A stretch of 43,175 bases of DNA, from assembly GCA_031278605.1 (NCBI GenBank), contig JAITKB010000112.1, positions 1-43,175 on the forward strand. Direction: 5' to 3'. Below are positions 1-37,681 of the stretch, piece by piece. The notes below the pieces were generated by a model, which had not been told where the DNA came from, searched no databases, and saw nothing but the letters and a program-made list of their open reading frames with translations. The position numbers and the translations under genes were made by a program. Origin of the DNA: Tannerellaceae bacterium (GTDB lineage: Bacteria > Bacteroidota > Bacteroidia > Bacteroidales > Tannerellaceae). Every line of letters begins with the position of its first letter. Within the stretch, counting starts at the first letter, position 1.

Positions 1-1260
1 CTTGAAGGCAAATAAATGGTCGTTTATCACGATGTAAGGCCCCAGCCCGAAACGTTCGTCGGCCCCCGATGTCCACACGGGCGTATGTAGATCGGAAGGC
101 GAATAGACCACCAATTTCCCCCGCAGACTTCCTCCATCCTTCGGCATGACACTTATAATTACGTCTTTGTATAGGATGGGAGTTTGTTGTTCGCTCGACA
201 ACCCTTCGTTGGGTTTATACTGCTCCGTAATGGAGGCATTCCAGGTGTTCCCGGTTTTATCGACACGCAACAGCGCGCCCCCCGTACCGTATCCGGCCAC
301 TAAGAATATCGCATTGGGAGACAACTGCAGGGGTGAAGGGGCTACAACGGAAGGTTGCCATTTCGTGGCGCTCCATAACAGGGCGCCCCTGTCGGCTTCC
401 TCGGCCGATATGCCGCATACGCCTCCTACGCCTACGTAGACGTAGGTCTTTTTTCCGCTCAAGGTCATCGGCATGACGGACGAATGAGACATTTTATACC
501 CCAGGCTGTTGGGTGTTTGCCAGAGGATTTCTCCGGTGTTGCAGTTCAGACCGGCCAACAGCACTTCTTCACCGGCGGGCGCTATAATCAACGTTCCGTT
601 GTCGGTGCGCGGGCATTGGCCGGTGTACCAGAAGGGGACTTCGGTTTTGAACTCTTTTTGCATGTCGAGCGACCATTTCATATCGCCCGATACGGGGTCG
701 CAACACATAAGATGTCCCTGAGGCCCCAGGGTGATGATATATTCGTTTGAAACAACCGGCGCCGTACGCGAAAACCCATGATTGCGTTTGATAGGCACAC
801 GATACCAGCGGCGCCACAGCTCCTGTCCGCTTTCGAGTGAGAAGCAACGCAGCATATCGGAACTTAGTCCTTCGTCGTAGTCCAGAAAATAGACCATTCC
901 GTTGTATATAACAGGAGCGGCATGTCCTTCGCCGGTGTTTACCGACCATAAAACGGGGTATTCCTCCTCCTTGCGGGGCGTGATGTCTTCGGGGGCGCGA
1001 ACGATATTGGTGAAAGATTCTCCCCGGAAGCAAATCCACTTGCCTGTAAGGGTAGAAGCCACTTGGTCGTAGCGCATAAAGAACTCGCCGATACGTACAT
1101 CGTCTGCCCTGCGAGCGGTTTCCGGAGGCCGGTTGTCGCCTCCCGGAGCCTGAAGGACGAACTCACGCGGTGGCGAATAGACATGCCACCCGATGATGAC
1201 GCCCAGATAGGCAAGCGTCACGGCTACCGTAGTAAGTCTTATGGTCTTTTTCGTATCCAA
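1..1260 (-). CDS. Membrane-anchored PQQ-like beta-propeller protein (3' end outside window)
   Basis: The minus-strand frame is open from 1260 to the window edge, giving at least 420 residues without a stop. It shows the repeated outer-strand pattern of PQQ-like/BamB-type propellers, such as 'SLESGQELWRR', 'DPVSGDMKWSL' and 'NTGEILWQT'. I place the start at TTG 1260, four bases after the stop of the upstream propeller gene, because no ATG or GTG precedes the first hydrophobic stretch (about residues 7-25), which looks like an uncleaved anchor facing the periplasm. It is the last visible gene of the operon that begins at 12933. No enzyme activity can be deduced; such propellers are often scaffolds. 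It is more divergent than the three other copies and lacks their 'WRG..RNGVY' opening. Confidence 0.8.
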   Translation of the reverse strand, partial: MDTKKTIRLTTVAVTLAYLGVIIGWHVYSPPREFVLQAPGGDNRPPETARRADDVRIGEFFMRYDQVASTLTGKWICFRGESFTNIVRAPEDITPRKEEEYPVLWSVNTGEGHAAPVIYNGMVYFLDYDEGLSSDMLRCFSLESGQELWRRWYRVPIKRNHGFSRTAPVVSNEYIITLGPQGHLMCCDPVSGDMKWSLDMQKEFKTEVPFWYTGQCPRTDNGTLIIAPAGEEVLLAGLNCNTGEILWQTPNSLGYKMSHSSVMPMTLSGKKTYVYVGVGGVCGISAEEADRGALLWSATKWQPSVVAPSPLQLSPNAIFLVAGYGTGGALLRVDKTGNTWNASITEQYKPNEGLSSEQQTPILYKDVIISVMPKDGGSLRGKLVVYSPSDLHTPVWTSGADERFGLGPYIVINDHLFAFK

Positions 1261-1264
1261 CAGA

Positions 1265-2470
1265 TCAACGGATTTTATAAGCCATTAAGGTATTTCCGTG
1301 GCGGACGTACAAAACCCCTTTGTGAATGACCGGATGCGCCCAGTGTTGTTCCGTTCCCATTGTGATAGAGAATTTGCTCACCAGATCAAAGCCGGCAGGG
1401 GTTGCTTTCACCAACGCCATTTCGCCGCGGTCGCTGTAACAGTAGAGCATCCCGTCGGCGGCAATCACATTGCCGATTCCCACCTTATTACTTTTGTATT
1501 TGGTCTCGCCGGTATTCCAGTCCACGCAATACCAATAGCGGTTTTTCTCTCCCGATCCATATACATAATCGCCAATCTTTACAATGCCTCCCATCTTGCT
1601 GTCCATTTCGTGCGTCCAGACTTTTTCTACGCTTCTTCCGCCGTTCGTGAGGCGAAGCAACACGGAGCCTATACCGCCGCCGGTGGTGGTGAATAATTTG
1701 TCGCCGTCAGCCAGCGGCGTATTCGGACTCATGCCGTATGGGTTTTTCTGATCCACCACCCAGAGACATTCTCCCGTTTGGGCATGAAAAGCGACCAGAG
1801 AACTGTCAATTGCATTTACGACAAGAGGGATTTCGAGGTTGCCGATGTACTGCGGGGAGCAGTACGTGGACGGCTTGCCGGTACCCGGCGACGACCAGAT
1901 CAGGTCGCCGGTTTTTTTATTCAATGCTACTACATTATTCTTTTCCCCTCCCGGCGTAGCGTAGATGATATCCTCGACAATCAAGGGAGATTCCGTCATG
2001 CCGAACTTGAGGTTATTCCCGTCGAAGTCCGTCAGTACATTCTTCGACCATACCGCATTCAGTGTATTTTCGTCTAAGCACGATAAGACGCCTCGTGCGG
2101 AAAAGAGATACAGCCTGCCGTCGTTTACATGAACGGTAGAGCGCGAACCGTTATAGTTCGTATTCCATTCCGGTCCGTAGGGTTTTTTGTGCAGGAGTTT
2201 GCCTTGTAAATCGAAAATATATAAGTAGCCTGTACTGTCGGTCATCCCGGTGACGTAAATCTTGTCGTTTGCTATGGCCACCGATGTGTGGCCTTCTCCC
2301 AGTCCGTCGTAGTTCCACAAAAGCTGGGGCCCTTCCGGCGGCCAGGATTTGAGCAGTCCGGTTTCTTCATAAACGCCGTTACGCGCATTTCCCCTCCATT
2401 GGGAATTTTCTTGCGCGACTGTTATCAGAGCCGATATGGAGAACAAAAAGAGGACAAAACTTTTTTTCAT
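1265..2470 (-). CDS. Secreted PQQ-like beta-propeller protein
   Basis: About 401 residues. A signal peptide (MKKSFVLFLFSISALITVAQ) is followed by 'WRGNARNGVYEETGLLKSW' and about seven propeller blades ('NKKTGDLIWSS', 'HAQTGECLWVV', 'DWNTGETKYKS'). The frame can be extended to a TTG at 2482, but ATG 2470 lies directly before the signal peptide and eight bases after the stop of the upstream paralogue, so I prefer it. It closely resembles the neighbour at 2479-3687, including the C-terminal 'LMAYKI', which points to tandem duplication. The role is unknown; a periplasmic or surface binding scaffold is the conservative reading. The blades resemble PQQ-quinoprotein dehydrogenases, but I see no clear cofactor or calcium site. 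Confidence 0.85.
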   Translation of the reverse strand: MKKSFVLFLFSISALITVAQENSQWRGNARNGVYEETGLLKSWPPEGPQLLWNYDGLGEGHTSVAIANDKIYVTGMTDSTGYLYIFDLQGKLLHKKPYGPEWNTNYNGSRSTVHVNDGRLYLFSARGVLSCLDENTLNAVWSKNVLTDFDGNNLKFGMTESPLIVEDIIYATPGGEKNNVVALNKKTGDLIWSSPGTGKPSTYCSPQYIGNLEIPLVVNAIDSSLVAFHAQTGECLWVVDQKNPYGMSPNTPLADGDKLFTTTGGGIGSVLLRLTNGGRSVEKVWTHEMDSKMGGIVKIGDYVYGSGEKNRYWYCVDWNTGETKYKSNKVGIGNVIAADGMLYCYSDRGEMALVKATPAGFDLVSKFSITMGTEQHWAHPVIHKGVLYVRHGNTLMAYKIR

Positions 2471-2478
2471 GATAGATG

Positions 2479-3687
2479 TCAACTGATTTTATAAGCCATT
2501 AATGTATTTCCGTGCCGAACGTACAAAACCCCTTTGTAAATGACCGGATGTGCCCAATGCTGGTCGGTTCCCAAGGTGATGGGGAAACGGCTTACCAGGT
2601 CGAAGCCTGAGGGCGTAATACGGACCAGCGCCATGTCGCCGCGGTCGCTGTAACAGTAGAGCATCCCGTCGGCGGCAATCACATTGCCGATGGGGAGTTT
2701 GTTTTCCTTATACTTCTGTTCGCCTGTCTTCCATTCCACGCAAAACCAGAAGCGATTCATATCGCCCGAACCGTAGGCATAATCGCCCACTTTTACCATT
2801 GCCCCGATACGTGAATCGAGTTGGGGCGAATCCCATACTTTTTGCACGCTACGTCCTCCGTCCGTGAAACGAAGCATGACCGAGCCTTTGCCGTATCCGC
2901 TGGTGCATAGAAGCATATTATCGCCGTATACGGGAATGTTCGGATGAACATTCGTGCGGTTTACCTGCTCGTAGGACCAGAGTTTTTTTCCCGTTTTCAC
3001 GTCTACTCCCACGATATGTTTGGCCATCATGGTTACCACCTGTGGCACCCCCTGATCTCCCACGTACAGGGGGGAGCAATAGGCCGAAAGGTCTCCTTCG
3101 CCCGGACAGCTCCAGAGAAGTTCTCCCGTAAGCTTGTTCAGGGCGATGATGTTGTGCGTTTCTCCGCCGGGGGAAACGATCAGTTTCTCGTCTACAATAA
3201 GGGGCGATTCACAGATACCCCATTGGATGTTTTTGGAGTCGAAATCGCTCAGGATGTTCTTTTTCCATAGAATATTCAAGTCGGCTTCGTTGAGGCAAAC
3301 GATGTCTCCCCTTCCCGAAATCAGGTACAATTTCCCGTCGTTGGCCGTAATGGTGCCTCGCGTACCGTTGTAGCTTTCGTCCCATTCGTTGCCGTATTCC
3401 TTTTTGTTGAGCAGCTTGCCGTTTGTATCCAGGGCGTAGATGTATCCTTTCCCTCCGGTCATGCCGGTCAGGTAGAGTTTTCCGGAGGAGACGGCTACCG
3501 AGGAATGTCCTTCGCCCAATCCGTCGTAATGCCAAAGCATTTGCGGCCCGTCTGTCGGCCAGGATTTCAACAGCCCGGTTTCCGGATAAATCCCGGTACG
3601 GTTCCCTCTCCATTGGATAACGTCCTGCGCTGTCAGCAGGGAGGCTGCGGTTATCCAGAGTGTACATGCGAAAACAATTCTTTTCAT
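2479..3687 (-). CDS. Secreted PQQ-like beta-propeller protein
   Basis: 402 residues starting at ATG 3687 with a signal peptide (MKRIVFACTLWITAASLLTAQ). Then come 'WRGNRTGIYPETGLLKSW' and repeated blade motifs ('NKLTGELLWSC', 'DVKTGKKLWSY', 'EWKTGEQKYKE'). It shares long identical stretches with the downstream copy, for example around 'GNVIAADGMLYCYSDRG' and the C-terminus, so the two are recent paralogues. It follows the terpene cyclase gene by 34 bases and belongs to the same operon. Conserved 'SPLIV...VSPGGE' segments suggest a common ligand surface, but nothing indicates the ligand. Probably periplasmic or outer-membrane associated. Confidence 0.85.
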   Translation of the reverse strand: MKRIVFACTLWITAASLLTAQDVIQWRGNRTGIYPETGLLKSWPTDGPQMLWHYDGLGEGHSSVAVSSGKLYLTGMTGGKGYIYALDTNGKLLNKKEYGNEWDESYNGTRGTITANDGKLYLISGRGDIVCLNEADLNILWKKNILSDFDSKNIQWGICESPLIVDEKLIVSPGGETHNIIALNKLTGELLWSCPGEGDLSAYCSPLYVGDQGVPQVVTMMAKHIVGVDVKTGKKLWSYEQVNRTNVHPNIPVYGDNMLLCTSGYGKGSVMLRFTDGGRSVQKVWDSPQLDSRIGAMVKVGDYAYGSGDMNRFWFCVEWKTGEQKYKENKLPIGNVIAADGMLYCYSDRGDMALVRITPSGFDLVSRFPITLGTDQHWAHPVIYKGVLYVRHGNTLMAYKIS

Positions 3688-3721: not shown

Positions 3722-5434
3722 TTACATAAGCAGATTTTTCAGGGCATGAAGCGCAAACGCCGGGTTGTACAGTTCTTCCGAATACCACAGGCGGGCGAAA
3801 TACAGGCCGATCGGTTCGGGCGCTCCAAGCGTTCCTTCCTTGAATCGCCGGTAGAGGTAGTCTACGCCTCGGGCGAGTGTTTCTCTGTCTTTATCCGGGC
3901 TATGCGCCAAGGCGCTTAGCGCACGTGCCGTGAGGGTTACCTTGGAGGGATAGCCTTTGGCGCCTCCCCATCCCCCGTCTTCGTTCTGCACGGATACCAG
4001 GTAAGCGGCTCCTTTGGCTGCGAGTTCCCGGGCCGGGGAAAGTGTCGAGAGGTTGAGGTATTCTACGGCAACGGCTGTGCCGTAGACCGGGGCATGTTCG
4101 TTTGGCGTGTCCTGGTCTCCAAACCACAAAGGCGTCCAGGATCCGTCGCTGGCCTGCGTCTTTTGCATCCACCGGAGTATGCGTCGGATACTTTTCCGGC
4201 ATTTTCGTTGCAGGCGTTCGGGCAGGACCTCATACCAGCGTTCAAACGCGGCTAAAGCGTGCGCCGACAAGTCCGGGCTGCTGCTGTCGAAGGGCAGGCG
4301 TCCCCATCCTTTGCAGAAGGTGGGGATCCCTCCGTCTTTGTTTTGCAAATCCAACAACCACCGTACGCCTTTCTCTGCCTCCGGGCAATAAACGCCCCGT
4401 TGCAGGATATGGAGGGCTATCAGATTGCCGGCCGTATCGTCGGCATCGGGCACGGCTCCGGGTAAGTCGCTCCATCCCCATCCTCCTTCTTTTGCTCCGG
4501 TGAAGGGATGCCGGTAGCGGAAGGCTTGATTCTTTACGGTTTGAAGCAAAAACTCCCTGTCCGGCACGTCTTCGCCGAGGGCTTTGATGCTGAGCGCCGT
4601 CACCCAGCAGGCCAGGTCGGTGTCGATAGGCCAGGAGCCGTTGGGTCTTACGTTATCGGTCAGGAATCCGATGGCTCTTTGGGTAACGCTGTGTTGGTTG
4701 TATCCGGCGCTGCTCATGCATATAGTTACAAATGCCGTGAGGGGCGCTGCTTCCAGGAATCCGCCGCCGGAGGGCTGCAACGTTTCCAATACCTTTAAAG
4801 AAGGTGTGACAAAAGATTCGCGAATCGTGAAGCCGATCCCTTTCTTTCCTTTTCGGTGACGGAGGATACCCACGGCAATCAGCGCCGGTATGGCGTAGCT
4901 GACAACCGGCAACTGCAGGAAGCGGAAAAACCGCTGGGGAAGGATAGCCAGTTCAAAGGGCAACCGGGGGATATGCCTCCAGTCGGTAATGAGGCCCGAC
5001 AAGGCGCACATGACCAATATCGGAACCGAAAAGGTAAGATCCTTGCCATAGTAGCTTAGTACGCCTTGCACGATTTTTTCGTTTGTTATTCCGCCGAAGC
5101 GGGCTGCAAGGAAGGTTTGCGTTTCTGTCGTGGCTTCGTTCAAGGCAAAGAGGGCGGCGTGGGATAATAAGGTAGCCGTCATGTTGGAGCGGCTTTCCGG
5201 CGTATCGCCCCATGAGCCATCGGGCCACATGGTGGAGCGAAGCCACCGGGCGCCGGCGTGGATGAGTTCGTTGTGGCGTTTCTGGTCCGTTTGGTAGAGG
5301 GCAAAAATGGATACGGCCGTTGAGATGGCGCTGGAAGAAAGTTTCCCCCGCCAGATTCCCTTGGGGGAGCGTCCGGCTTTCAGTTGTTGGCCGAGCGCCT
5401 CGGTCATTTCTTTTATGTGATCAAGGTTCAGCAT
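3722..5434 (-). CDS. Class II terpene cyclase, squalene-hopene cyclase superfamily
   Basis: 570 residues of alpha/alpha-barrel repeats. The protonating motif of class II cyclases, DADDTA, is intact at residues 330-335. The position matches that of squalene-hopene cyclases, which are about 630 residues long; this protein is somewhat shorter. QW-type repeats are visible ('PDGSWG' 71-76, 'PSGGGFLE' 221-228, 'PNGSWPID' 265-271, 'EGGWGWSD' 316-323, 'QNEDGGWGG'), as is the family-typical 'FLEAAPLTAFV'. A hydrophobic stretch near 132-190 could be the membrane-entry channel. It probably cyclises a polyprenoid by protonation; the substrate (squalene, polyprenyl diphosphate or a prenylated compound) cannot be read. 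ATG 5434 overlaps the upstream repeat-protein stop (ATGCTGA), implying translational coupling. The polyprenyl synthase two genes upstream supports an isoprenoid substrate. Confidence 0.85.
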   Translation of the reverse strand: MLNLDHIKEMTEALGQQLKAGRSPKGIWRGKLSSSAISTAVSIFALYQTDQKRHNELIHAGARWLRSTMWPDGSWGDTPESRSNMTATLLSHAALFALNEATTETQTFLAARFGGITNEKIVQGVLSYYGKDLTFSVPILVMCALSGLITDWRHIPRLPFELAILPQRFFRFLQLPVVSYAIPALIAVGILRHRKGKKGIGFTIRESFVTPSLKVLETLQPSGGGFLEAAPLTAFVTICMSSAGYNQHSVTQRAIGFLTDNVRPNGSWPIDTDLACWVTALSIKALGEDVPDREFLLQTVKNQAFRYRHPFTGAKEGGWGWSDLPGAVPDADDTAGNLIALHILQRGVYCPEAEKGVRWLLDLQNKDGGIPTFCKGWGRLPFDSSSPDLSAHALAAFERWYEVLPERLQRKCRKSIRRILRWMQKTQASDGSWTPLWFGDQDTPNEHAPVYGTAVAVEYLNLSTLSPARELAAKGAAYLVSVQNEDGGWGGAKGYPSKVTLTARALSALAHSPDKDRETLARGVDYLYRRFKEGTLGAPEPIGLYFARLWYSEELYNPAFALHALKNLLM

Positions 5435-6297
5435 GTTCCTAAAGCCAATAATCCGTAAAACGTATATTCAATGTCGCTGTTTCCTTCCACCAGCGTGGAG
5501 GAAAACCCGCCCGACTCCAACCAGTGCGCTTCGATAAAGGAAGCAGGCGTTATACGCGGCTTTACCTCGTAGCATTGGAGGACGAACAGGGCTGTTGCCG
5601 TGGAAAGCATATCGGGCAGGGGTGTTTGATCGTTCGCGCAGAAGCCTCCCGTGCTGTCTTGGCGGAGGTAGAGACCTTCGAGGGCTTCGTCCCGGTTGTT
5701 GGGGTATCCCTCCAATTGTCCTTTGACGGACAGGGCGGCGGCCGTGGCATTGGTGGATGCGTATAATCCGCTACGATGATTGGAATAACCTCTGCCGGGT
5801 ATCTTGTAGGCGTTGAGGGATTCCAGGATTTCCTGTTTGTTGCCTATCGGTTGGCGAAGGTCTTCCATCAGCGACAGCCACATAAACCGGGAGTAGGGCG
5901 AATAGCTGTCGTTGTGCGGGAAGGTTTGGAAGACCGGTAGCGGGTTTTTGTCGGGGAAGAGCTGCCGTCGCAGTTTCTTGCCCGGTGAATCCAGCAACAA
6001 GGAAGAACGTACACAGGCGGCATAGTATACTAAATCCTGCGTGTTTACCTTACAGTGCTCCAATTCCCGGCGGGCCTTTTTCCGGTCTGTTTGGACTTGG
6101 AAGATATGGGAGAGCATCAGACCGAAGACGGTATAGTATAGATCTGCTTCCCGGCTTTTGTTCCGGAAGAAAAGCGCGTCCGTACGTTGGGATTCGATGT
6201 ATTGGCGAATCTGTTGCCGGGCTTGGGGGCTAAGTTTCTTTTTGCCTTTATTCAGGGTCTGCATCATTCGGGTCGATAGGGTATGGGTTGGTTTCAT
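5428..6297 (-). CDS. Prenyltransferase-beta/terpene-cyclase-like repeat protein
   Basis: 289 residues. The C-terminal half shows repeats typical of the protein-prenyltransferase beta subunit/squalene cyclase barrel: 'STGGFCANDQTPLPDMLSTA', 'LESGGFSST' and 'IEYTFYGLLALG'. The N-terminal 110 residues are basic and helical without a recognisable domain. There is no DxDD motif, so it is not itself a class II cyclase; I also cannot identify the Asp/Cys/His zinc site of true protein prenyltransferases with confidence. It sits between the polyprenyl synthase (17 bases upstream) and the cyclase (7-base overlap), so a partner or non-catalytic subunit of the cyclase is the simplest reading. A separate small prenyl-handling enzyme is the alternative. 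Confidence 0.65.
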   Translation of the reverse strand: MKPTHTLSTRMMQTLNKGKKKLSPQARQQIRQYIESQRTDALFFRNKSREADLYYTVFGLMLSHIFQVQTDRKKARRELEHCKVNTQDLVYYAACVRSSLLLDSPGKKLRRQLFPDKNPLPVFQTFPHNDSYSPYSRFMWLSLMEDLRQPIGNKQEILESLNAYKIPGRGYSNHRSGLYASTNATAAALSVKGQLEGYPNNRDEALEGLYLRQDSTGGFCANDQTPLPDMLSTATALFVLQCYEVKPRITPASFIEAHWLESGGFSSTLVEGNSDIEYTFYGLLALGTC

Positions 6298-6314
6298 TTA
6301 TGTTTGGATCGGGC

Positions 6315-7901
6315 TTATTGTTTCAGGATTCGTTCGGTCAGACGAAACAGCAGGCGTTTCATTTCCGTGTTGTGCAGGGTATTCAGCGAGGCTAATGCCT
6401 GTTGGCGGTAGGTCTCGGCCAGGGAGGTTACATGCTTGGTTGCTTTTTGGAGCAAGGGTTTATTCCCTGCATCGGCAAGAAAGTCTTTTATCGGATGGTC
6501 TGCTTCGTACATGCCTTGGAGGTATCTGTTTGTTGGGTTTTGTTCGCAAAGAACGGCGAGTGTTGCCGAAGGTCTCAGGGTTGGAGATGCATCGTGGGCG
6601 AAGTCGGCGGCATCGTCCTGCAATTGATAGGCGATACCCAGCGACCGGGAATACGTATGGAGGGTGTCCTGCATTGCTTTATCCGTTATGCCGGAGCAGA
6701 TCAGGCCAAAATCCAACGCGACCTCGAAGGCGGGGACCGTTTTGCCGGAGAAGATTTCCAGGACATAATCCAGCGTTAACGTCTCGGGCTTACGGCTCCA
6801 TTGCAGTTCCATTCCCTGCCCCTTGCAGAGGGCGACATGTGCGGCGGCGGCGACCTGAAGCAGTTCCATTTGGTTGCATGAAGCGAGCAAACGGTAGCCT
6901 TCGCCCAGTAGCAGGTCGCCCACGTTGATGGCTGTGGGGATGCCGTGCGCGGAGTGAACCGTGGGGCGGTTGTTGCGGAAGAGGTCGTTGTCTTGTATAT
7001 CGTCGTGTACCAGGGAGGCTTTGTGGAAACATTCCACGGCGATAGCCGCCCGGCGGAGGGTTTCGGGGATTTCCTTCAGCCCGGTCAGCGACCGATAGAT
7101 GCCTATGGTGAGATAGGGCCTCCACCGTTTCCCGTCGCCTGCCAGCCATTCCCGTGCAACGGCGGAGGCGGGATCGGTAGCCTTGCCCAATATTTCCTGC
7201 AGGCTGTCGGGCCGGAACCATTCTTCCAGGATGCGTTTGATCTCGTCCTCGTGAAGCGACGGGGCGGGCAAGGAGTGCGAAACGGAAGTCATGCTCATCA
7301 GACTTTCTACGTAGGCCTGGTCTACTTCGGTGTCTTTACAGCCTGCCCGGTTCAGGGGGATGGCCATGCCGGGAACGGCGTGGCGGACAAGCAACGGGAA
7401 GGCTTTTTCGAGCGAATCCAAACATCCTACGCCAATCACCGTATCGACCACGCCGCTTTCCATCAGTCCGATTACGGGGGTGAAGCCTTCGGCCACCAGG
7501 GTCAGGATTCCAAGTTCTCCGGCTTTGTCCTGCAGCGTGGGAATCCGGCAACTGCCGCATCGTCGGCAGAGCAGCCCCAGTTCGTCGACGTCGGCCTGGC
7601 AGCGGGAGGAGTTGCGCAGGCATTGGGGGAGCAGTAAGATGCGTTTGTCGTAGGGGACAGAAGCCACGGTTTCTTTCCACAGGCCGTTGTTGATTTCCAC
7701 CATCAGCCAGCCTCTTAGAGTCTTGTCCAGCCCGTGGGAGAGGATAAGGCCGAGGGACATATCCGAGAGTTCCTCCATGGACAGGGGAGGGGTGAGGGAG
7801 GCATTGGCCAACCTGTCGGCAATGATACCCCGCAGGCGTTTCCTCTCTGTGGGGGTTGGAGGAACTGCGTGAATGGCTTTCTTTTCCGTTATTTCATCCA
7901 T
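6315..7901 (-). CDS. DUF116-like domain fused to trans-polyprenyl diphosphate synthase
   Basis: 528 residues from ATG 7901, which overlaps the radical SAM stop as ATGGATGA; a TTG five codons upstream is possible but less likely. Residues about 1-200 resemble the DUF116 family, with cysteines at 94, 101, 112, 115 and 118 (pattern ...CLRNSSRC...C..C..C) and a later 'GCKDTEVD'; they could bind a metal or an Fe-S cluster. Residues about 220-528 are a polyprenyl synthase with 'GKRWRP' (257-262), the first aspartate motif DDIQD (300-304) and the second DDAAD (429-433), all intact. It should condense isopentenyl diphosphate units into a linear prenyl diphosphate, probably for the cyclase in the same operon. 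Chain length is not predictable. Fusion of these two domains is unusual. Confidence 0.85.
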   Translation of the reverse strand: MDEITEKKAIHAVPPTPTERKRLRGIIADRLANASLTPPLSMEELSDMSLGLILSHGLDKTLRGWLMVEINNGLWKETVASVPYDKRILLLPQCLRNSSRCQADVDELGLLCRRCGSCRIPTLQDKAGELGILTLVAEGFTPVIGLMESGVVDTVIGVGCLDSLEKAFPLLVRHAVPGMAIPLNRAGCKDTEVDQAYVESLMSMTSVSHSLPAPSLHEDEIKRILEEWFRPDSLQEILGKATDPASAVAREWLAGDGKRWRPYLTIGIYRSLTGLKEIPETLRRAAIAVECFHKASLVHDDIQDNDLFRNNRPTVHSAHGIPTAINVGDLLLGEGYRLLASCNQMELLQVAAAAHVALCKGQGMELQWSRKPETLTLDYVLEIFSGKTVPAFEVALDFGLICSGITDKAMQDTLHTYSRSLGIAYQLQDDAADFAHDASPTLRPSATLAVLCEQNPTNRYLQGMYEADHPIKDFLADAGNKPLLQKATKHVTSLAETYRQQALASLNTLHNTEMKRLLFRLTERILKQ

Positions 7902-9111
7902 AAGCTCCGAAACCAAAGAAATAATGTTTTTTCATCCACCGGTAGAGGATGTTTTCTTCCGGTATTTCTTCTCCTTTTAGATCGTGTCCTGCCAAGACCG
8001 GCATCCGCTTTATTTCTTCCCATACGGTGCCCCGCGAGGTGGTATCGCTGGCTTGCCGGCTTTCCAGATAGGAGCGCAGGAGGGAGGGGTTTTCCAGCAG
8101 GATGCAGCCGCGGGAATGGGAGGCGGCGAGCTTTCGCAATCCGGCCAGGAAATCGGACTGCTGAAAGAGTTCCGCCACGTTTGTTCCTTCTTCGTTGATA
8201 AAGTCTTTGGCCATTTGCAGGGGCGGACAAAACTCCAGGGCGCCTGCCGGGGAGATGTGGTGACTCATCCCCATGGCTCCGGGGCAGAGGGCGTTTCCTT
8301 TATCGTCCCAGTAGGCGTCGATCAGTTGCAGGGGAGCCGTATTGCGTTCTTGGGCGATAAACCGGCGCAGGTGAAGGATTTGTTCTTTTTCCAGCGCGTT
8401 TTCCGTTTTCGGTTCGGCTCCTGTTGGGCGGTAGATATAGTACCAGAGGTAGTGTACGCCTTCTCCGGCCAGGAAGTGGAGGTATTGGGGGCTGACAAGT
8501 TCGTTGAAATTGCTTTTGCCGATGCTGGCTGCCGCTCCGATGATCAGTTTGGCTTTGCGGCAGGCCCGGACGCCTTCCAGGGTACGGCGGAACACTTCTT
8601 TTTGTCCGCGTCGGGCGTCGCTTTCCTTTTCCAATCCTTCGATGCTGATAAGGGGGGTTACGTTGCCCAGGCGTTTCAGCGTGGCGGCTATTTCGTGGGT
8701 GAGCAGGGTGGCGTTGGTATAAAGTTGGAAGTAGCAATCTTTGTGTCGGGCGAGGATTTCCATCAGTTCGGGATAGAGCAGGGGTTCGCCTCCCAGGATG
8801 CCGAAGAAGTAGGACCCTTGTTTCTTGCAGCTGGTAATGATCCCGTCCAGTTGCCGAGGGGAGAGCCGTTTCTTCCCTCCGTGCGAGACCCAGCAACCGC
8901 TACAGGCCAGGTTGCAGTTCTCTGTGATGGAAATCATCACGAAAGCGGGGAAGAAGGGTTTCCCTTTGCGCTGACGTTCCTCGAAGCGACGAATGTTCAG
9001 GAGGCTGCGCAGGCCGAAGTTCCAGGCAAACTTCCACACGAGGCGGGGGGAACATTCGAGCGGTATTCTCAGGAGGGCTTTGAGGGTTAATGCGTATGCT
9101 TTCGGTTTCAT
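7894..9111 (-). CDS. Radical SAM enzyme
   Basis: 405 residues. The cluster motif CNLACSGC places C66, C70 and C73 as the [4Fe-4S]-S-adenosylmethionine ligands, followed by 'GGEP' (107-110) and a TIM-barrel pattern. The C-terminal region has further cysteines ('ALCPGAMG', 'LEFCPPLQ'), compatible with an auxiliary cluster in a SPASM-like arrangement. The frame extends upstream to 9699, but ATG 9111 overlaps the ferredoxin stop as ATGA and begins the recognisable protein. Position between a dicluster ferredoxin and a prenyl synthase suggests it tailors an isoprenoid rather than a peptide; no peptide precursor gene is nearby. HpnH (adenosylhopane synthase) is the known radical SAM partner of squalene-hopene cyclase, but I see no specific HpnH signature. 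Confidence 0.85.
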   Translation of the reverse strand: MKPKAYALTLKALLRIPLECSPRLVWKFAWNFGLRSLLNIRRFEERQRKGKPFFPAFVMISITENCNLACSGCWVSHGGKKRLSPRQLDGIITSCKKQGSYFFGILGGEPLLYPELMEILARHKDCYFQLYTNATLLTHEIAATLKRLGNVTPLISIEGLEKESDARRGQKEVFRRTLEGVRACRKAKLIIGAAASIGKSNFNELVSPQYLHFLAGEGVHYLWYYIYRPTGAEPKTENALEKEQILHLRRFIAQERNTAPLQLIDAYWDDKGNALCPGAMGMSHHISPAGALEFCPPLQMAKDFINEEGTNVAELFQQSDFLAGLRKLAASHSRGCILLENPSLLRSYLESRQASDTTSRGTVWEEIKRMPVLAGHDLKGEEIPEENILYRWMKKHYFFGFGAYG

Positions 9112-9821
9112 GAGGGGTTTTTGCCGGAGGGTTTGTTTCTTAGGAGCGAGACGCCGGCTTGTCGTTGGGCAAGCCTTTGCCGCAGGGCTTCGTTGTAGAG
9201 TGTTTTCGCATCGAGGCCCATGGCTTCTTCGTTGGTCAGTCCGCCGTTGATGGGCGATTTGGGGTATTTGGGGAAGATGATGGCTCTTTGCGGGCATGTC
9301 CTGGCACAGGCCGGGCAATTGATTTTGCAGTTGCGGGGATGCCCCACTTTCACGGTTTTCTCTTCCATTTCGTAGACGCCGAAGAGACAGAAGTCGTGGC
9401 ATTTGCCGCAGTTGCAGCAACGGTTTTTGTCGATGGCCGGATACCAGGCGTCTTGTCCCGGATGGGCGGGCAGGGCGTCGATGCGGTTGGGGTCGAATGC
9501 TTGGGGCGATACGGGTTCTGTTGTCAGGGAGAAATTCCGGAGCGCTTCTTCGCCGTTGTGGTTGCGGAGGTCTATCACCTGTTGGGGAGCGAGCGCCCAA
9601 CGGTCGAAAAGGGCCAGCACGGCCCGCGGGTAACAGGCGATTACGACCGAGGCCGCCATCTCCCGCATTGCTTGGTGGGAGGAGATGGCCGTTTCGCATA
9701 GGTCGGCTTCATAGTGCAGGGTGTATCCTGCTTTGGTGAGTTGTCGGGAAACCTCTACCACGCTTTCGCGGGGGATTACCGACCGGGAGGTACATACGCA
9801 GATTGTAATGTTTTTGTTCAT
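9108..9821 (-). CDS. Dicluster [4Fe-4S] ferredoxin with Cys-bearing N-terminal domain
   Basis: 237 residues from ATG 9821; the frame is open further upstream to 10481, but that part is antisense-like shadow under the response regulator. Two cluster motifs are clear: C135-x2-C138-x2-C141-x3-C145 and C165-x3-C169-x2-C172-x3-C176. The N-terminal 130 residues carry C8, C10, C42 and C63 ('ICVCTSRSVI', 'DLCE'), loosely recalling heterodisulfide-reductase-associated proteins; this could hold a redox thiol or another cluster. It is coupled by an ATGA overlap to the radical SAM gene, so its likely job is to deliver electrons for SAM cleavage or for product reduction. Cytoplasmic, no signal peptide. 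Confidence 0.8.
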   Translation of the reverse strand: MNKNITICVCTSRSVIPRESVVEVSRQLTKAGYTLHYEADLCETAISSHQAMREMAASVVIACYPRAVLALFDRWALAPQQVIDLRNHNGEEALRNFSLTTEPVSPQAFDPNRIDALPAHPGQDAWYPAIDKNRCCNCGKCHDFCLFGVYEMEEKTVKVGHPRNCKINCPACARTCPQRAIIFPKYPKSPINGGLTNEEAMGLDAKTLYNEALRQRLAQRQAGVSLLRNKPSGKNPS

Positions 9822-10612: not shown

Positions 10613-11650
10613 TTACTTCAGGGGTAAATATACGCTGAAAATCTTTCCATTGTCTTCTACGCGGATTTTTTTGTTCATCAGCAGCAGGAAGCGGTTCTCC
10701 AGGTTTCGGAGGCCTGTACCGTTGGTTGTTGGGGGGTCTTGCTTGGGGTAGATGGGGCAGGAGACCACCAGCTCTGTCTTTTCGTTCAGATAGATGCCGA
10801 CTTGCATGAAATGATCGCGGTCGATGGTGTTGTGTACTACCACATTGTCGATGATCGGAAGGAGCGAGAGGGCCGGGAGTTTCACTTCTCGCCGGGCTTC
10901 GTCCACTTCGATGCGGAACACCAGCTTATGGGCAAAGCGCACTTCCATCATGTAGCGAAAGGCGTTGACGAACTCCAATTCTTCTTCCAGGCTTACCAGG
11001 CCTCGTTTGTCGCTTTGGAGGATGTAGCGGAAGACGTCGGAGAGTTTATTTACGTAGGCCAAGGTATTTTCGTCGTTCTTTTTCCGGATGAGGGCGGTAA
11101 GGCCGTTGAGGGAATTGAAGAAGAAATGGGGGTTGATTTGGTTGGCCAGCGCGTCGTAGCGGCTTTGGAGGTTTTCCGTTTTGAGTTGTTCGATTTCCTG
11201 TTCCTTTTTCAGTTGGATGTCGTACAGGAAGAAGACGTGCCCTGCGGACGTGCACAGCCCGCAGAGCACGAGGAATTGGAACAGCAGGATGCTGCCGAAG
11301 CAGTCGGACTTCCTGTAACAGAGCAGCGAGAGCGCCACGTAGAGTGCGTAGGCCACTCCTGTAAGGAGGAAGGAGTGCGAGATGCGCTTTTTGAAGGGAT
11401 AATCCCGCATTTGCTTCACGTTGCGGTGGAGCAGCAGGCCGGTGAGGAGGAAAAAGAACAGGTAGCGGAACGCAAAAAAGTAGAAGTAAGCCTGCCGTTC
11501 CGCTTCGTCAAGGAAACTCAGGTCGAAAGCCAGGCAGGCGATGTTGGGATAGACGATGAACAGGGCGCTGAACAGGCTGATCAACGCAATGAAACCTCGG
11601 GAGGTATATGTGTGCCGAAGGGGGATCATCGTCTTTGTATTTTCTTTCAT
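10613..11650 (-). CDS. LytS/YpdA-type membrane sensor histidine kinase
   Basis: 345 residues. Four hydrophobic segments between about residues 20 and 145 form a membrane sensor without a large extracellular loop. A short coiled coil (146-165) follows, then the His_kinase box 'QINPHFFFNSLNGL' with H175 as phosphoacceptor. The ATP-binding part is recognisable from 'LSLLPIIDNVVVHN' (N box) and 'GTGLRNLENR' (G box). Its partner is the LytTR regulator nine bases downstream. The start overlaps the stop of the preceding propeller gene (ATGA), tying signal perception to a secreted propeller protein. The signal is unknown; a membrane lipid or redox state would fit the rest of the operon. Confidence 0.9.
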   Translation of the reverse strand: MKENTKTMIPLRHTYTSRGFIALISLFSALFIVYPNIACLAFDLSFLDEAERQAYFYFFAFRYLFFFLLTGLLLHRNVKQMRDYPFKKRISHSFLLTGVAYALYVALSLLCYRKSDCFGSILLFQFLVLCGLCTSAGHVFFLYDIQLKKEQEIEQLKTENLQSRYDALANQINPHFFFNSLNGLTALIRKKNDENTLAYVNKLSDVFRYILQSDKRGLVSLEEELEFVNAFRYMMEVRFAHKLVFRIEVDEARREVKLPALSLLPIIDNVVVHNTIDRDHFMQVGIYLNEKTELVVSCPIYPKQDPPTTNGTGLRNLENRFLLLMNKKIRVEDNGKIFSVYLPLK

Positions 11651-12933
11651 TTCAGGTTATAAGCCATCAGCGCCTGTCCGTGGCGGAGGTATAGCCTGCC
11701 GTCGGCAATGACGGGATGCGCCCAGAAAGGCCCTTCGCCCCGTGTGACGCGGAACAGGCTCACGACGTCGAATTTTTCGGCATTTGGGCGGACCAATCCG
11801 ACGGTTCCCCGGCGTTCGTCGTAGCAGTATAGCCTGCCGTCGGCGGCCACGATGGATCCTTTGCTTCGTCCGCCTCCCCAGTCTGTTTCATACCGGGTTT
11901 CTCCCGTGTTCCAGTCTACGGCCATCCAGTTGCCTTGCGTGTTGTTGATCCAGTTGGAGCCGTAGATAAGGCCGTCCACCAGGACATAACCTCCGTGATG
12001 GGTATCCAGGTCGTTGTTTTTCCAGAGGAGGGAGACGCCCCTGAGGTCGTCGTTGAGTTGAAGCATATAGGCTCCGATGTTGTATCCGTGGCAGAAGAAG
12101 ATGCGCCCTTGGTGGTAGAGGGGGGTATTGGGGGCGATGTTGTCGAACGGGCGTCCGGAGCGTGCCGGGTCCGGCGGGGGGCCCCAGTCGGAGAAGGTCC
12201 ATTCTATGGCGCCGGTTTCCGGGTTTACGCCTATCAGGTTTTTGCTTGTGGAGCCGACGATCTGCCTTTTCCCCCGGTAGGTGATCAAAAGGGGCGAGAC
12301 GTAGGCGCCGACGTCGCCCAGTCCGGGGGTTTTCCATAGCGTTTCCCCGGTTGCGGCGTCGAGGGCCACCAGGGTGGTTTGGTTGCCCGAGGGGGTGTAT
12401 ATCACTTTGTTGTCGAACACCAGCGGACATTCCGAGGTTCCCCAGTTGCCGGTTTTTCGTTCAAAGGTTTCGCCTCCGTTCACCTTCCAGAGGATGACGC
12501 CGTCGGTGGTACGGATGCAGACGATTTCGCCCGAACCGCTGATTACGTAGGCTCGCTCCTGGTCGATAGCCGGGGTGGTACGGGTTTCGGGGTAGGTTTG
12601 ATTCCAGGGTATGCCGTAGACGGTTTCGTATATTTTCTTGCCTTCCAGGGTGTAGGCCGAGAAGATTTCCCGGTCTTCGTCTTCGTTCATACCGGTCAGG
12701 TAGAGGCGGTTGCCCACGACCACGGGGCTGGAATATCCTTTTCCTGCGTCCAAGGTTTCCCACAACAGGGCAGGTCCTTCGGGGGGCCAGGTTTTGAGCA
12801 GTCCGGATTCGGGATATACGCCGTTGCGTGCCGGGCCTCGCCAGCCGTAAGGGGTTTGTGCCGAGAGGATTCCCGTGGTGGCTAAGGCCATCAGCAGGAA
12901 GCGGGAGAGCTGGGGGATGTGTTTTCTTTCCAT
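11647..12933 (-). CDS. Secreted PQQ-like beta-propeller protein, first gene of operon
   Basis: 428 residues. Signal peptide at about 1-26 (hydrophobic 'FLLMALATTGILSAQ'), then 'YGWRGPARNGVYPESGLLK' and repeated blade motifs ('DAATGETLWKT', 'NPETGAIEWTF', 'DWNTGETRYET'). It shares layout and C-terminal 'LMAYNLK' with the two copies at 1265-3687 but is more distant. ATG 12933 is about 32 bases downstream of a TATCTTTG -7 element. Being co-translated with a sensor kinase (ATGA overlap) raises the possibility that it binds the sensed ligand in the periplasm; this is inference only. Confidence 0.87.
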   Translation of the reverse strand: MERKHIPQLSRFLLMALATTGILSAQTPYGWRGPARNGVYPESGLLKTWPPEGPALLWETLDAGKGYSSPVVVGNRLYLTGMNEDEDREIFSAYTLEGKKIYETVYGIPWNQTYPETRTTPAIDQERAYVISGSGEIVCIRTTDGVILWKVNGGETFERKTGNWGTSECPLVFDNKVIYTPSGNQTTLVALDAATGETLWKTPGLGDVGAYVSPLLITYRGKRQIVGSTSKNLIGVNPETGAIEWTFSDWGPPPDPARSGRPFDNIAPNTPLYHQGRIFFCHGYNIGAYMLQLNDDLRGVSLLWKNNDLDTHHGGYVLVDGLIYGSNWINNTQGNWMAVDWNTGETRYETDWGGGRSKGSIVAADGRLYCYDERRGTVGLVRPNAEKFDVVSLFRVTRGEGPFWAHPVIADGRLYLRHGQALMAYNLK

Positions 12934-14562: not shown

Positions 14563-15351
14563 ATGAAACGGAAAGAATTTTTAGGCGAAGCCCTGGGGAC
14601 CTTCCTCCTGGTGCTTTTCGGCTGCGGCTCGGTGGCCGTGGCCGTATTGTACGGCGAATACAACAGTATTTTCCAGATTGGTTTTGTGTGGGGCATCGGC
14701 GTTACGCTGGCCATTTACCTCACGCGGCATTTGTCCAACGCCCACCTGAACCCGGCGGTCACGCTGGCCATGGTCCTGGGCAAACGCATGAGCGCCGGCA
14801 AGATACCGGTATATCTCGGCGCACAGCTCTTCGGCGCTATCCTGGCGGGCGCGGTGATCTACCTGCTCTTCGCCCCCTCGATTGCCGCCTACGAGAGTCT
14901 CCACCACATCGTGCGCGGAACGGACGCCTCCATCATCACGGCCAAGATCTTCGGCGAGTATTATCCCAACCCGGGATGGACCAACGCCGTCGCCTCCCTG
15001 CCGCTGGCCGTTGCGGGCGAGGCTTTCGGCACCTTCCTCCTGGTATTAGCTATCTTCGGCCTGACCGAAGACGCCAATGCCGGACGTCCCAGCAGCACGC
15101 TGACGCCGCTCTTTATCGGCCTCACCGTTTCGTCCATCATCTGGCTAATCGCCCCGCTCACGCAGGCCGGGCTGAATCCCGCACGTGACTTCGGTCCCCG
15201 CCTCGTGGCCTGGGTCGCCGGTTGGGGTGAGGCCGCCTTCCCCGACCGTTGCGGGGGATTCTTCTGGGTCTATATCCTGGCGCCCATTGCCGGAGGCCTG
15301 GTAGCCGCCCTGCTCGAACCCTTTATGAAACGAATCATCCACAAGAATTAA
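14563..15351 (+). CDS. glpF: MIP-family channel, probable glycerol facilitator
   Basis: 262 residues with six hydrophobic segments and both channel signatures: NPA at 63-65 ('HLNPAVT') and NPA at 205-207 in 'LNPARDFGPR'. The aspartate after the second NPAR (D209) is the classic mark of glycerol-conducting aquaglyceroporins rather than water-only aquaporins. It would admit glycerol or a similar small neutral solute through the inner membrane. No glycerol kinase is nearby; instead it lies between a porin-like gene and a COG0523 GTPase gene (gaps of 24 and 21 bases), so the physiological substrate may differ. The family call is firm, the substrate only probable. Confidence 0.9.
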   Translation: MKRKEFLGEALGTFLLVLFGCGSVAVAVLYGEYNSIFQIGFVWGIGVTLAIYLTRHLSNAHLNPAVTLAMVLGKRMSAGKIPVYLGAQLFGAILAGAVIYLLFAPSIAAYESLHHIVRGTDASIITAKIFGEYYPNPGWTNAVASLPLAVAGEAFGTFLLVLAIFGLTEDANAGRPSSTLTPLFIGLTVSSIIWLIAPLTQAGLNPARDFGPRLVAWVAGWGEAAFPDRCGGFFWVYILAPIAGGLVAALLEPFMKRIIHKN

Positions 15352-15372: not shown

Positions 15373-16470
15373 ATGAGTTCAACACGTATTATCATCGCCG
15401 GCGGTTTCCTGGGAGCCGGCAAAACCACCCTGCTCTGGGAAGCTGCCCGGAAACTGATGGGAAAAGGACTTTGCGCCGGTTTGATCACCAACGATCAGGC
15501 GCCGGAGCTGGTAGACAGCGCCCTTTTGGCACGCGACGGCGTCAAAGTGGCCGAAGTGAGCGGAAGCTGCTTCTGCTGTAATTTCAACGGATTCCTGCAC
15601 GCCGTACAAAACCTGCGCGGGGAAATCCATCCGGACGTGATCATTGCCGAGCCGGTAGGCAGTTGCACCGACCTCTCGGCGACTATTATCCAACCCCTGA
15701 AGAAGTTTTGGAAACAGGAACTTACCGTGGCACCCCTCTCCGTGCTGGCCGATCCCGCCCGCCTGGGCTCTATCCTTGCCGGCGGCACCGCCGGATTGCA
15801 TCCCGATGCGGCTTATATCTACCGCAAACAGTTGGAAGAAAGTGATATAATCCTCATCACCAAAACCGACCTGGTAGCGCCCGAAGAGTTGGCCACGCTG
15901 AAGAAACGCATCGCAAAGGCCTATCCCTCCTCTACCATCATAGCCGTGAGCGCCTTAACGGGAGAAGGAATCGACCAGTGGCTGGAGGAAGTATCGAAAC
16001 GCACCGACGCCGGCTTGCGGCTGGCCGACGTGGATTACGATATTTACGCACATGGCGAAGCCGTGCTGGGATGGCTGAACGGGACGGTGCGCCTCAAAGC
16101 GCCAACAGATACCGATTGGGACGCCTTCACCTCCCGTTTCCTGTCGGCCCTTTCCGAAGAGTTTGACCGCCAGAACTATTCCGTGGGCCACGTGAAAATA
16201 ATAGCCGAAAGCGGCAACCAATACGTGGCAGGCAATCTCACGGGAAAGGCCGAAACCCTGGCCGTGAGAGGTTCGGTAGGCTCCGCTAAGGAAATCAAAC
16301 TGACCGTAAACGCCCGTGTGGAAACCAGCCCCGGCGAATTGGACCAAATCGTAAGAGATACGCTCCAGGCGCTAACCCAGGAGGATACGCTTCAGGTAGA
16401 AACCCTGGCCTGGCGTTTCCTTATGCCGGGCCGGCCCCAGCCCACGCATCGTTTTGTGGAAGTGGTTTAG
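15373..16470 (+). CDS. CobW/COG0523-family GTPase (metallochaperone-like)
   Basis: 365 residues. G1/Walker A is 'GGFLGAGKTT' (10-19). The CxCC metal motif of COG0523 proteins is present as C66-F-C-C ('SGSCFCC'). 'IAEPVGSC' corresponds to the switch region and 'ITKTDLV' to the G4 motif. The C-terminal part differs from canonical CobW domains, suggesting a distinct subgroup. Members of this superfamily load metals (zinc, cobalt, nickel) or activate metal/cofactor-dependent enzymes by GTP hydrolysis. Its target is not evident; the operon contains only channels. Its stop is nine bases from the convergent metallo-hydrolase stop. Cytoplasmic. Confidence 0.85.
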   Translation: MSSTRIIIAGGFLGAGKTTLLWEAARKLMGKGLCAGLITNDQAPELVDSALLARDGVKVAEVSGSCFCCNFNGFLHAVQNLRGEIHPDVIIAEPVGSCTDLSATIIQPLKKFWKQELTVAPLSVLADPARLGSILAGGTAGLHPDAAYIYRKQLEESDIILITKTDLVAPEELATLKKRIAKAYPSSTIIAVSALTGEGIDQWLEEVSKRTDAGLRLADVDYDIYAHGEAVLGWLNGTVRLKAPTDTDWDAFTSRFLSALSEEFDRQNYSVGHVKIIAESGNQYVAGNLTGKAETLAVRGSVGSAKEIKLTVNARVETSPGELDQIVRDTLQALTQEDTLQVETLAWRFLMPGRPQPTHRFVEVV

Positions 16471-20868: not shown

Positions 20869-21957
20869 ATGAAACTATTTCCCTCTTTGGAAAAGAAATA
20901 TTCCACCGAAGAAAAGACGGCGCAGGAAGCACAACGTCTGGCGCACGAGATAGCCTTTGGACCTGTTGTTTTTCAGGTATCCAGACTGATGGTTAAGTTC
21001 GGGATACTGCAACTGTTGCTGGATTCGGAAAAGGGTCTTACCCTCGAAGAGATTGCCGGGAAAACGCCGGCTCTCTCGCGCTATGCCTTGCAGGTATTGC
21101 TGGAATCGTCGCTCACAACCGGTACCGTGTTGCATAAAGAGGGGCGGTTTGAAGCCTCCAAAACCGGCTGGTTCCTGCTAAACGATCCGTTGGTGAGGGT
21201 GAATATGGATTTTAATCACGATGTAAATTATCTGGGATGGTTCTCACTCGAAGAGGCTTTGCTGAAGGGCAAACCGGAGGGGCTGAAGGTTTTTGGCCCC
21301 TGGCCTACGATATACGAGGGTTTGTCTATGTTGCCGGAACGGGTGCAGGACAGTTGGTTGGCCTTCGATCATTTTTATTCCAACCATTCCTTCGACCAAG
21401 CCCTCGACATTGTGTTTGGTTATCACCCCCGCACCTTGCTGGATGTGGGGGGGAATACGGGTTGCTGGGCGATGCGTTGCGTGGCACATGATCCGGAGAT
21501 TCAAGTCACCATTCTGGATCTTCCCGGGCAGATCGAGCTGATGAAGCGGCACACAAGCGAGGTGTGTGGAGCCGGGCGCATCCGGGCTTTTGAAGCCGAT
21601 GTGTTGGATAGAAACACCGCCTTTCCCACCGGATTCGACGCCATTTGGATGAGTCAGTTTCTGGATTGTTTCTCCGAAGAAGAAGTGTGCAGCATCCTTG
21701 GGCGAGCATCCGAAGCGATGCATCCCCACACACGGCTTTTTATCATGGAGACCTTTTGGGACAGGCAACGCTTTGAAACCGCGGCATACTGCCTGACGCA
21801 AATCAGCCTTTACTTTACGGCCCTGGCCAACGGAAACAGCAAAATGTATCATTCCCACGACATGATACGTTGCCTGGAAGCCGTCGGGCTGGAGGTAGAA
21901 AAAATACACGACGGACTGGGAAAAGGACACTCCATACTTATATGCAAAAAGAAGTAA
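20869..21957 (+). CDS. SAM-dependent O-methyltransferase (COMT/acetylserotonin type)
   Basis: 362 residues. A winged-helix dimerisation domain occupies about 25-105 ('GLTLEEIAGKTPALSRYALQ'), as in small-molecule O-methyltransferases. The SAM-binding domain has motif I 'LLDVGGNTG' (190-198), the acidic loop 'VTILDLPGQ' and 'DAIWMSQFLDCFSEEE'. It probably methylates a hydroxyl on an aromatic head group or on a polyketide intermediate. Aryl-polyene head groups can be O-methylated, which fits the context. It lies 14 bases downstream of the acyltransferase gene. Cytoplasmic. Confidence 0.88.
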   Translation: MKLFPSLEKKYSTEEKTAQEAQRLAHEIAFGPVVFQVSRLMVKFGILQLLLDSEKGLTLEEIAGKTPALSRYALQVLLESSLTTGTVLHKEGRFEASKTGWFLLNDPLVRVNMDFNHDVNYLGWFSLEEALLKGKPEGLKVFGPWPTIYEGLSMLPERVQDSWLAFDHFYSNHSFDQALDIVFGYHPRTLLDVGGNTGCWAMRCVAHDPEIQVTILDLPGQIELMKRHTSEVCGAGRIRAFEADVLDRNTAFPTGFDAIWMSQFLDCFSEEEVCSILGRASEAMHPHTRLFIMETFWDRQRFETAAYCLTQISLYFTALANGNSKMYHSHDMIRCLEAVGLEVEKIHDGLGKGHSILICKKK

Positions 21958-21958
21958 G

Positions 21959-22824: not shown

Positions 22825-22826
22825 TC

Positions 22827-24586: not shown

Positions 24587-24602
24587 AAAATAGACCTGTA
24601 CA

Positions 24603-24860: not shown

Positions 24861-24865
24861 GCGCC

Positions 24866-28109: not shown

Positions 28110-28193
28110 CCCGCTCGGGTGTGTCGCTCACGCCGACCCGAATGAGGGCTTGAAGTCTGAAAATGATTACTTTTACCGAAAAGAAACATACTC

Positions 28194-36365: not shown

Positions 36366-36377
36366 AACGATATAACC

Positions 36378-37655: not shown

Positions 37656-37681
37656 GCCTTTATGAAAAACCTGTAATATTT

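Follow-up and report, generated by a model that had tools for sequence, protein, structure and literature searches.

Among the described systems closest to the locus reported here are the hopanoid operon, which an excerpt of a published account gives as hpnCDE, shc and hpnH (PMC12583986), and the cyclase MstE, which according to an excerpt of its description cyclises geranylgeranyl-dihydroxybenzoate (PMC9401909). The stretch of DNA analysed here, referred to as the window, is a 43,175-nucleotide contig (JAITKB010000112.1, C52 in our numbering) from a Tannerellaceae genome of 2.36 Mb in 140 contigs that is 84.5% complete (GCA_031278605.1). Its minus strand carries five genes encoding, in this order, a ferredoxin-domain protein (Fd), a radical S-adenosylmethionine (SAM) enzyme, a fusion of a DUF116 domain with a polyprenyl synthase, an alpha-alpha toroid protein (TOR) and a class II cyclase of the squalene-hopene cyclase (SHC) type. 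With a probability of roughly 55%, we read these five genes as a dedicated pathway for a cyclised isoprenoid that is made without squalene and whose product is used or finished by an adjacent redox module.

The five-gene cassette and its proteins

9108..9821, minus strand: Fd, a 237-aa protein with an N-terminal domain and a 2[4Fe-4S] ferredoxin domain
7894..9111, minus strand: radical SAM enzyme, 405 aa (PF04055, CNLACSGC)
6315..7916, minus strand: DUF116::polyprenyl synthase fusion, starting with TTG at 7916 or ATG at 7901
7299..7736, minus strand: DUF116 domain of the fusion (PF01976)
5428..6297, minus strand: TOR, a 289-aa alpha-alpha toroid protein
3722..5434, minus strand: SHC-type class II cyclase, 570 aa, overlapping the TOR gene by 7 bases
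4436..4447, minus strand: DXDD acid motif of the cyclase (DADD, residues 330-333)

A preliminary description of this DNA had placed a ferredoxin, a radical SAM enzyme, a polyprenyl synthase and a class II cyclase at 3722..9821, and all four are present there on the minus strand, with gene starts that overlap or nearly do so, as it had said; the fifth member, TOR (6297-5428), was missing from its list. The motifs that it had pointed out were recovered as well. DADDTA of the cyclase lies within PDADDTAG (DADD at 4447-4436), both aspartate motifs of the synthase are present as HDDIQD and QLQDDAAD, the radical SAM cluster motif CNLACSGC accompanies a PF04055 match (E 8e-20), the eight cysteines of the double-cluster ferredoxin are identical in 60 of 60 sequences, and the synthase is indeed a fusion, with DUF116 joined at its N-terminus (PF01976, E 2e-30). 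The end of the locus drawn at 3722 did not hold: two BamB-like propeller genes (3687-1265) lie beyond it, and after them begins the gene of a 473-aa propeller, which the contig end cuts.

The cyclase matches both SHC domain families above their cut-offs (PF13243, E 1e-30; PF13249, E 2e-21), and it retains the DXDD acid together with an SHC-like histidine, H392. It is an SHC-type class II cyclase (SHC/oxidosqualene cyclase fold) with a predicted cyclisation activity. SHC is its nearest relative at 90 bits, compared with 65 for the drimenyl diphosphate synthase SsDMS and 30 for the ent-copalyl diphosphate synthase 5bp8, and its score with the squalene-hopene cyclase model TIGR01507 is 78 bits, below the cut-off of 431. 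D.DDT occurs in 77 of 78 cyclases, the remaining one having DADDS, and 31 of the 32 sequences that do not show PDADDT[AS] still carry it; this conservation is partly built in, because the loci were chosen by the patterns PDADDT[SA]G or VVSYAIPAL. The window genome has its close relatives in the Bacteroidales, and the best named match of the cyclase is a Tannerella metagenome-assembled genome (MAG), at 68%. A class-wide search gave cyclase matches in 6 of 295 genomes, of which only the window's own was strong, and the five others, at 27-32% identity (E 1e-4 to 4e-8), were excluded from the relatives; a plasmid search returned 59 records, each below 60% identity and none reaching 80% coverage.

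The polyprenyl synthase half of the fusion (PF00348, E 8e-44) has the synthase fold and the first and second aspartate-rich motifs (FARM and SARM) of polyprenyl diphosphate synthases, and a fold search with the fusion model returned synthases. ECFHKAS precedes the first aspartate motif in 66 of 66 synthases, and the alanine at position -5 presumably points to a chain of C20 or longer. Seven cysteines of the DUF116 domain are identical in 64 of 64 sequences. A phylum-wide search with the fusion protein gave matches in 395 of 395 genomes; among the matches listed, only the window's own reached DUF116 proper and the others started at residue 186 or later, so this search is little informative on the fusion.

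For the radical SAM enzyme, the CxxxCxxC cluster motif is kept in 57 of 59 sequences and is accompanied by a C-terminal cysteine pattern (C276-X13-G290-X4-C295 ... C336) that we take to be twitch-like. The C-terminal tail FFGFGAYG (residues 398-405, window 7897-7920) is almost invariant in 56 sequences and may reach into the active site or a partner. None of the best 25 of 56 matches to NCBIfam equivalogs reached its cut-off, the top one being NirJ2 at 65.8 of 500 bits, and the HpnH model was matched at 51 bits against a cut-off of 225. For the five cassette proteins together, no NCBIfam model was over cut-off among the matches listed, and TOR had no match of any kind. The nearest solved structure is that of the peptide maturase SkfB (E 1.3e-15). 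Anti-phage defence was considered and rejected: the radical SAM protein matches pVip (viperin) models weakly and in the radical SAM core (E 2.9e-12), which we read as a superfamily resemblance, and the other four proteins do not match them.

Fd scores 22.8 bits with Fer4_7 (E 1.3e-4), below the Pfam cut-off of 27, and the nearest solved sequences of its ferredoxin part are HdrA subunits (E 3.6e-4). Its N-terminal domain has the conserved pattern CxC...DLC...ACxPR, and the likeness of this part to HdrA is only suggestive (match not significant, domain score -1.0).

TOR has the toroid fold of protein prenyltransferase beta subunits and a weaker Foldseek match to MstE (6sbb, E 5.6e-3). The zinc ligands of those beta subunits are Asp-Cys-His. 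In 70 TOR sequences no Cys, His, Arg or Lys is conserved at 95%, and on these grounds TOR is no ordinary zinc prenyltransferase. For a replacement of the zinc cysteine at one exact site the register is weak: RabGGTase PDVCYS lies opposite a PDLLST-like TOR consensus in a poor alignment of the third repeat (domain 3, i-Evalue 8.4), and the best-scoring alignment uses another repeat. The window's TOR contains no DXDD, and its hhalign comparison with the cyclase gave nothing useful (probability 1.3%).

Conservation and the adjacent redox module

A cyclase above 40% identity, the level used for counting (G666 at 29% and a fragment in G648 were left out), was found in 15 of 100 relatives, with a broken copy in G682. 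The radical SAM protein is present in 15 of these 15 genomes, with one further partial match of 40% in G740. Thirteen of the 15 loci (L056-L068) have the same neighbours as the window, and in 12 of the 13 a propeller homologue follows the cyclase gene; the exception, L062, begins at a contig end within the radical SAM gene, with Fd outside the visible stretch. The Fd genes of L058 and L067 were missed by the filter on open reading frames (ORFs) and are seen in L082 and L169. The radical SAM gene is split in L056, and in G718 the cyclase gene, the radical SAM gene and the redox module lie on different contigs.

A profile scan of genome contigs with the cyclase alignment yielded at least 516 confirmed relatives, of which the best 80 loci were kept. 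Their record titles include Tannerella, Parabacteroides, Bacteroidaceae, Prevotella, Alistipes, Odoribacter, Carboxylicivirga, Marinifilum, Labilibaculum, Lentisphaerae, Oligosphaera, Victivallales, Kiritimatiellae, Verrucomicrobia, Phycisphaerae and other planctomycetes, as well as Acidobacteria, Thermoanaerobaculia and Chitinispirillia. Counted over all ORFs, all six domains occur together in 57 of the 80 loci; a length-filtered count gave 47, with Fd genes hidden by longer antisense ORFs. Order and strand agree in 55 of the 57 full loci, the radical SAM gene lying further upstream in L132 and L137, and the median gaps between cassette genes are -1 to 5 bp. Of the 23 incomplete loci, 13 offer under 4 kb of sequence ahead of the cyclase gene, and their missing genes may therefore lie past the contig end. 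The full cassette is present in Oligosphaera ethanolica DSM 24202, Mangrovibacterium marinum DSM 28823 and Marinifilum flexuosum DSM 21950. One MAG (Prevotellaceae Hm464_bin62) has two cyclase loci, one with the whole cassette (L113) and one with only the toroid and cyclase genes (L103).

Because order, strand and motifs are conserved in several phyla, chance clustering can be ruled out, and the neighbourhood comparison that the preliminary description had proposed as a check turned out strongly positive both among the relatives and across phyla. Tree distances of the five genes correlate pairwise at 0.84 to 0.95 (55 loci, with no unrelated control gene), which shows that the cassette genes travel together and nothing beyond that. 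Loss was also seen. L070, from a genome of the same genus (G648), has a scar at 3910-4112, with the regulator on one side and the propeller on the other: its translation opens with MNKEITIC, which resembles the beginning of Fd, and continues with the cyclase segment GWVTALSIKALDEDVPDRNF before a stop codon is reached; most simply, the cassette would have been removed here by deletion. Together with the broken cassettes of G682 and L155, this indicates that the cassette is dispensable in some hosts.

The genes flanking the cassette in the window are the following:

2479..3687, minus strand: secreted BamB/PQQ-type beta-propeller, adjoining the cyclase gene
1265..2482, minus strand: second BamB/PQQ-type beta-propeller
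1..1263, minus strand: start of a 473-aa membrane-anchored propeller, with which the redox module begins; truncated at the contig end and with an uncertain start codon
9845..10603, minus strand: LytTR response regulator, 23 bases upstream of Fd
10613..11650, minus strand: LytS-type histidine kinase
11647..12933, minus strand: third BamB/PQQ-type propeller
14563..15351, plus strand: aquaporin/glycerol facilitator (MIP), a recurrent cassette neighbour
15373..16470, plus strand: CobW-family GTPase, a recurrent cassette neighbour

The cassette is thus preceded by a histidine kinase and a LytTR regulator, a homologue of which adjoins it in several loci, and followed by two secreted BamB-like propellers and then by the beginning of another, truncated one. 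In the relatives the propellers lead into a redox module, with genes for the 473-aa membrane-anchored propeller, a propeller and a polyferredoxin with twin-arginine translocation (Tat) signals, a NapH-like membrane polyferredoxin, a transmembrane propeller, a NuoE-NuoF fusion, a 2Fe-2S/NuoG-like protein, a lipoprotein propeller, an ABC ATPase with an FtsX-type permease, and a GT4 glycosyltransferase. These names were given by Pfam, except that signals and NapH-likeness were judged by eye. In the window genome the same module genes lie on contig C68, which begins within the 473-aa propeller; compared with the first 261 bases of C68, the final 261 of the window's minus strand agree at 241 positions, and the two contigs are therefore probably neighbours, perhaps of slightly different strains.

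The NapH-like protein (at 1e-30) was detected in 25 of 100 relatives, comprising 14 of the 15 cyclase genomes (not G699) and 11 of the 85 others (Fisher p 1.3e-9, on the assumption, not true here, that the genomes are independent). At least one of six chosen module genes lies in the flanks of 55 of the 80 loci, including Lentisphaerae, Verrucomicrobia and planctomycete loci, with L151 and L154 counted by the permease alone and L145 by the NuoG-like gene alone. It follows from these counts that the module can exist without the cassette and that the cassette is seldom found in a genome without the module. In other Bacteroidales (L158-L168) the module was seen without the cassette and with its order largely kept, as would befit an electron-transfer locus in its own right. 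A further locus, L085, comes from a record titled Eubacteriales; since its module proteins share 94-99% identity with their counterparts in G671/L064, which is related to the window genome, it is probably a misbinned contig.

Of the 80 loci, 12 have the aquaporin and CobW genes paired in their flanks (L080, L092, L104, L106, L107, L110, L120, L122, L128, L139, L143 and L150). CobW with a GcvH-like protein is found near the cassette in L132, L136 and L137 (Acidobacteria and Verrucomicrobia), and L132 also has a class-V aminotransferase (cysteine-desulfurase-like) gene nearby. Elsewhere in the window, the plus strand at 20869-39393 encodes ketoacyl synthases, an O-methyltransferase, an MMPL/acyltransferase fusion, two flavin amine-oxidase-type enzymes, a B12-binding radical SAM protein and an AMP-binding protein, a set that we take to resemble an aryl-polyene or flexirubin-type cluster.

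Proposed pathway and its alternatives

In the proposed pathway, the polyprenyl synthase half would make a linear prenyl diphosphate of C20 or longer, and the DXDD acid of the cyclase, with H392, would protonate a terminal isoprene and form rings on the chain or a derivative of it, as family membership and conserved residues suggest for both enzymes. TOR, which shares its fold with prenyltransferase beta subunits and short class II cyclases and has no zinc site, may act on the same chain by removing, transferring or holding a prenyl group. Fd, and perhaps also the cysteine-rich DUF116 domain, would feed electrons to the radical SAM enzyme for a radical modification, in analogy with the action of HpnH on diploptene. 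The adjacent NADH-to-periplasm redox module would then use or finish the product, the cassette being an optional part of that module. This is consistent with the earlier proposal that a prenyl diphosphate or a prenylated compound is cyclised and afterwards tailored by radical chemistry, an account that contains neither TOR, nor the link to the periplasmic redox module, nor the aquaporin/CobW pair. More tentatively, and with the odds well against it, the ring-bearing, radical-modified isoprenoid could be a dedicated lipid-soluble cofactor, electron carrier or membrane anchor of the adjacent NADH-driven chain (NuoEF fusion, NapH-like membrane polyferredoxin, Tat-exported polyferredoxin and beta-propellers), a respiratory-type system across phyla; both would be undescribed.

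Several observations weigh against the five-gene pathway. The squalene synthase family SQS_PSY is present in 5 of 28 cassette genomes (G688, G724, G741, G742 and G745), including two of the eight with a known completeness of 90% or more, and the 84.5% completeness of the window genome limits its own SQS_PSY negative. Cyclase genes without most of the other cassette genes nearby occur in L080, L083, L092, L103, L148 and L153, in L083 and L092 with 8 kb of upstream DNA available. In L139 the radical SAM profile finds no match, while in L141, L144 and L145 (Phycisphaerae/Sedimentisphaerales) the gene between Fd and the fusion encodes another radical SAM protein, about 525 aa long; given the variation in these four loci, the reaction of the radical step may not be the same throughout. 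In G688 the radical SAM gene is split. About 50 residues past the second aspartate motif are missing from the fusion proteins of L059 and L061, with the reading frame intact, which leaves the prenyl-elongating role as a prediction. DUF116 is a family without an assigned function, and 11 of the 100 relatives carry the redox-module marker without the cyclase.

The alternative that survives best, a possibility well behind the five-gene pathway, is a meroterpenoid or prenylated-carrier route in which the chain is first joined to a non-isoprenoid acceptor (an aromatic ring, a sugar phosphate, a small thiol or a protein), perhaps by TOR, and then cyclised as by MstE. The resemblance of TOR to protein prenyltransferase beta subunits and, more weakly, to MstE agrees with such a route, as does the GcvH-like protein, a possible carrier, in L132, L136 and L137; against this, TOR lacks the conserved Cys, His, Arg and Lys noted above, and the cassette includes no gene of the UbiA type.

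A hopanoid-like triterpenoid pathway, with squalene from a non-homologous or distant source, is improbable. It would fit the closeness of the cyclase to squalene-hopene cyclases and the five genomes with SQS_PSY, but the cassette has its own polyprenyl synthase, the cyclase has 78 of the 431 bits demanded by the hopene-cyclase model, and the partner genes are mostly missing. The absence of squalene synthase asserted in the preliminary description was not knowable from the window; the genome search bears it out for 23 of 28 cassette genomes, including that of the window. The genomes without SQS_PSY include the single-contig G671 and five more at 98-99% completeness, and they make up six of the eight genomes whose known completeness is 90% or more. 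HpnH (at 1e-40) had no match in 27 of the 28; the exception, the planctomycete G745, may make hopanoids too, because it carries both the HpnH match and SQS_PSY. With the neighbourhood kept, these counts uphold the view that the isoprenoid cassette is conserved and dedicated and differs from hopanoid operons.

Less probable still is a pathway for a ribosomally synthesised and post-translationally modified peptide (RiPP), in which the radical SAM enzyme would mature a peptide prenylated by the isoprenoid genes: SkfB is the nearest solved structure (E 1.3e-15), but median gaps of -1 to 5 bp and 23 bases upstream of Fd leave scant space for a precursor gene, and no RiPP pathway that includes a class II cyclase is known to us. 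DUF2600, the tetraprenyl-beta-curcumene synthase family, is the first cyclase of the sporulene route. A sporulene/C35 terpene pathway as in Bacillus, which likewise combines a class II cyclase with a polyprenyl synthase, is the least credible of all, as DUF2600 was found in 0 of 28 cassette genomes with Bacillus subtilis positive as a control.

The compact five-gene set of this Parabacteroides-related bacterium, shared with distant bacteria, thus looks like an assembly line for a cyclic isoprenoid, and as it adjoins genes of an electron-transfer chain, identifying what it makes could bring to light a new membrane lipid or cofactor. If the five-gene pathway is real, a range of bacteria, many from rumen or gut samples according to record titles, make a cyclic isoprenoid that searches for hopanoid genes would miss. 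The cassette also offers a pathway context for DUF116 and for a bacterial protein-prenyltransferase-like toroid, and with named strains carrying it in full, the question of the product is directly testable.

Comparison with known systems

Every cassette enzyme belongs to a known superfamily, and the gene combination is previously undescribed in the open literature searched, where no description was found among the matches listed (subscription journals were mostly outside the scope). With the hopanoid operon the cassette shares an SHC-type class II cyclase, in which the DXDD acid and the SHC histidine are kept, and a radical SAM enzyme, which in the cassette is predicted to modify an isoprenoid lipid. 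It differs in that its carriers mostly lack the squalene synthase family (23/28) and HpnH (27/28), in its DUF116-fused polyprenyl synthase, its own ferredoxin and an extra toroid, and in a radical SAM protein far from HpnH (51/225 bits). SsDMS and ent-copalyl diphosphate synthase 5bp8 likewise combine a DXDD cyclase with an adjoining source of prenyl diphosphate and no squalene, whereas the cassette cyclase is nearer SHC (90 versus 65 and 30 bits).

The ferredoxin part of Fd is shared with HdrA of heterodisulfide reductase (E 3.6e-4), but Fd has 237 aa only and no flavin adenine dinucleotide (FAD) domain. The beta subunits of GGTase-I, RabGGTase and FTase differ from TOR, which lacks conserved Cys or His for zinc and conserved Arg or Lys, and no alpha subunit is found among the cassette genes. 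MstE, a single-domain class II cyclase of a prenylated benzoate, resembles TOR in being a single toroid, with a Foldseek match between them, and cyclisation of a prenylated compound is one candidate reading of the cassette; in contrast to MstE, the window's TOR is without DXDD, and the cassette holds two toroid proteins.

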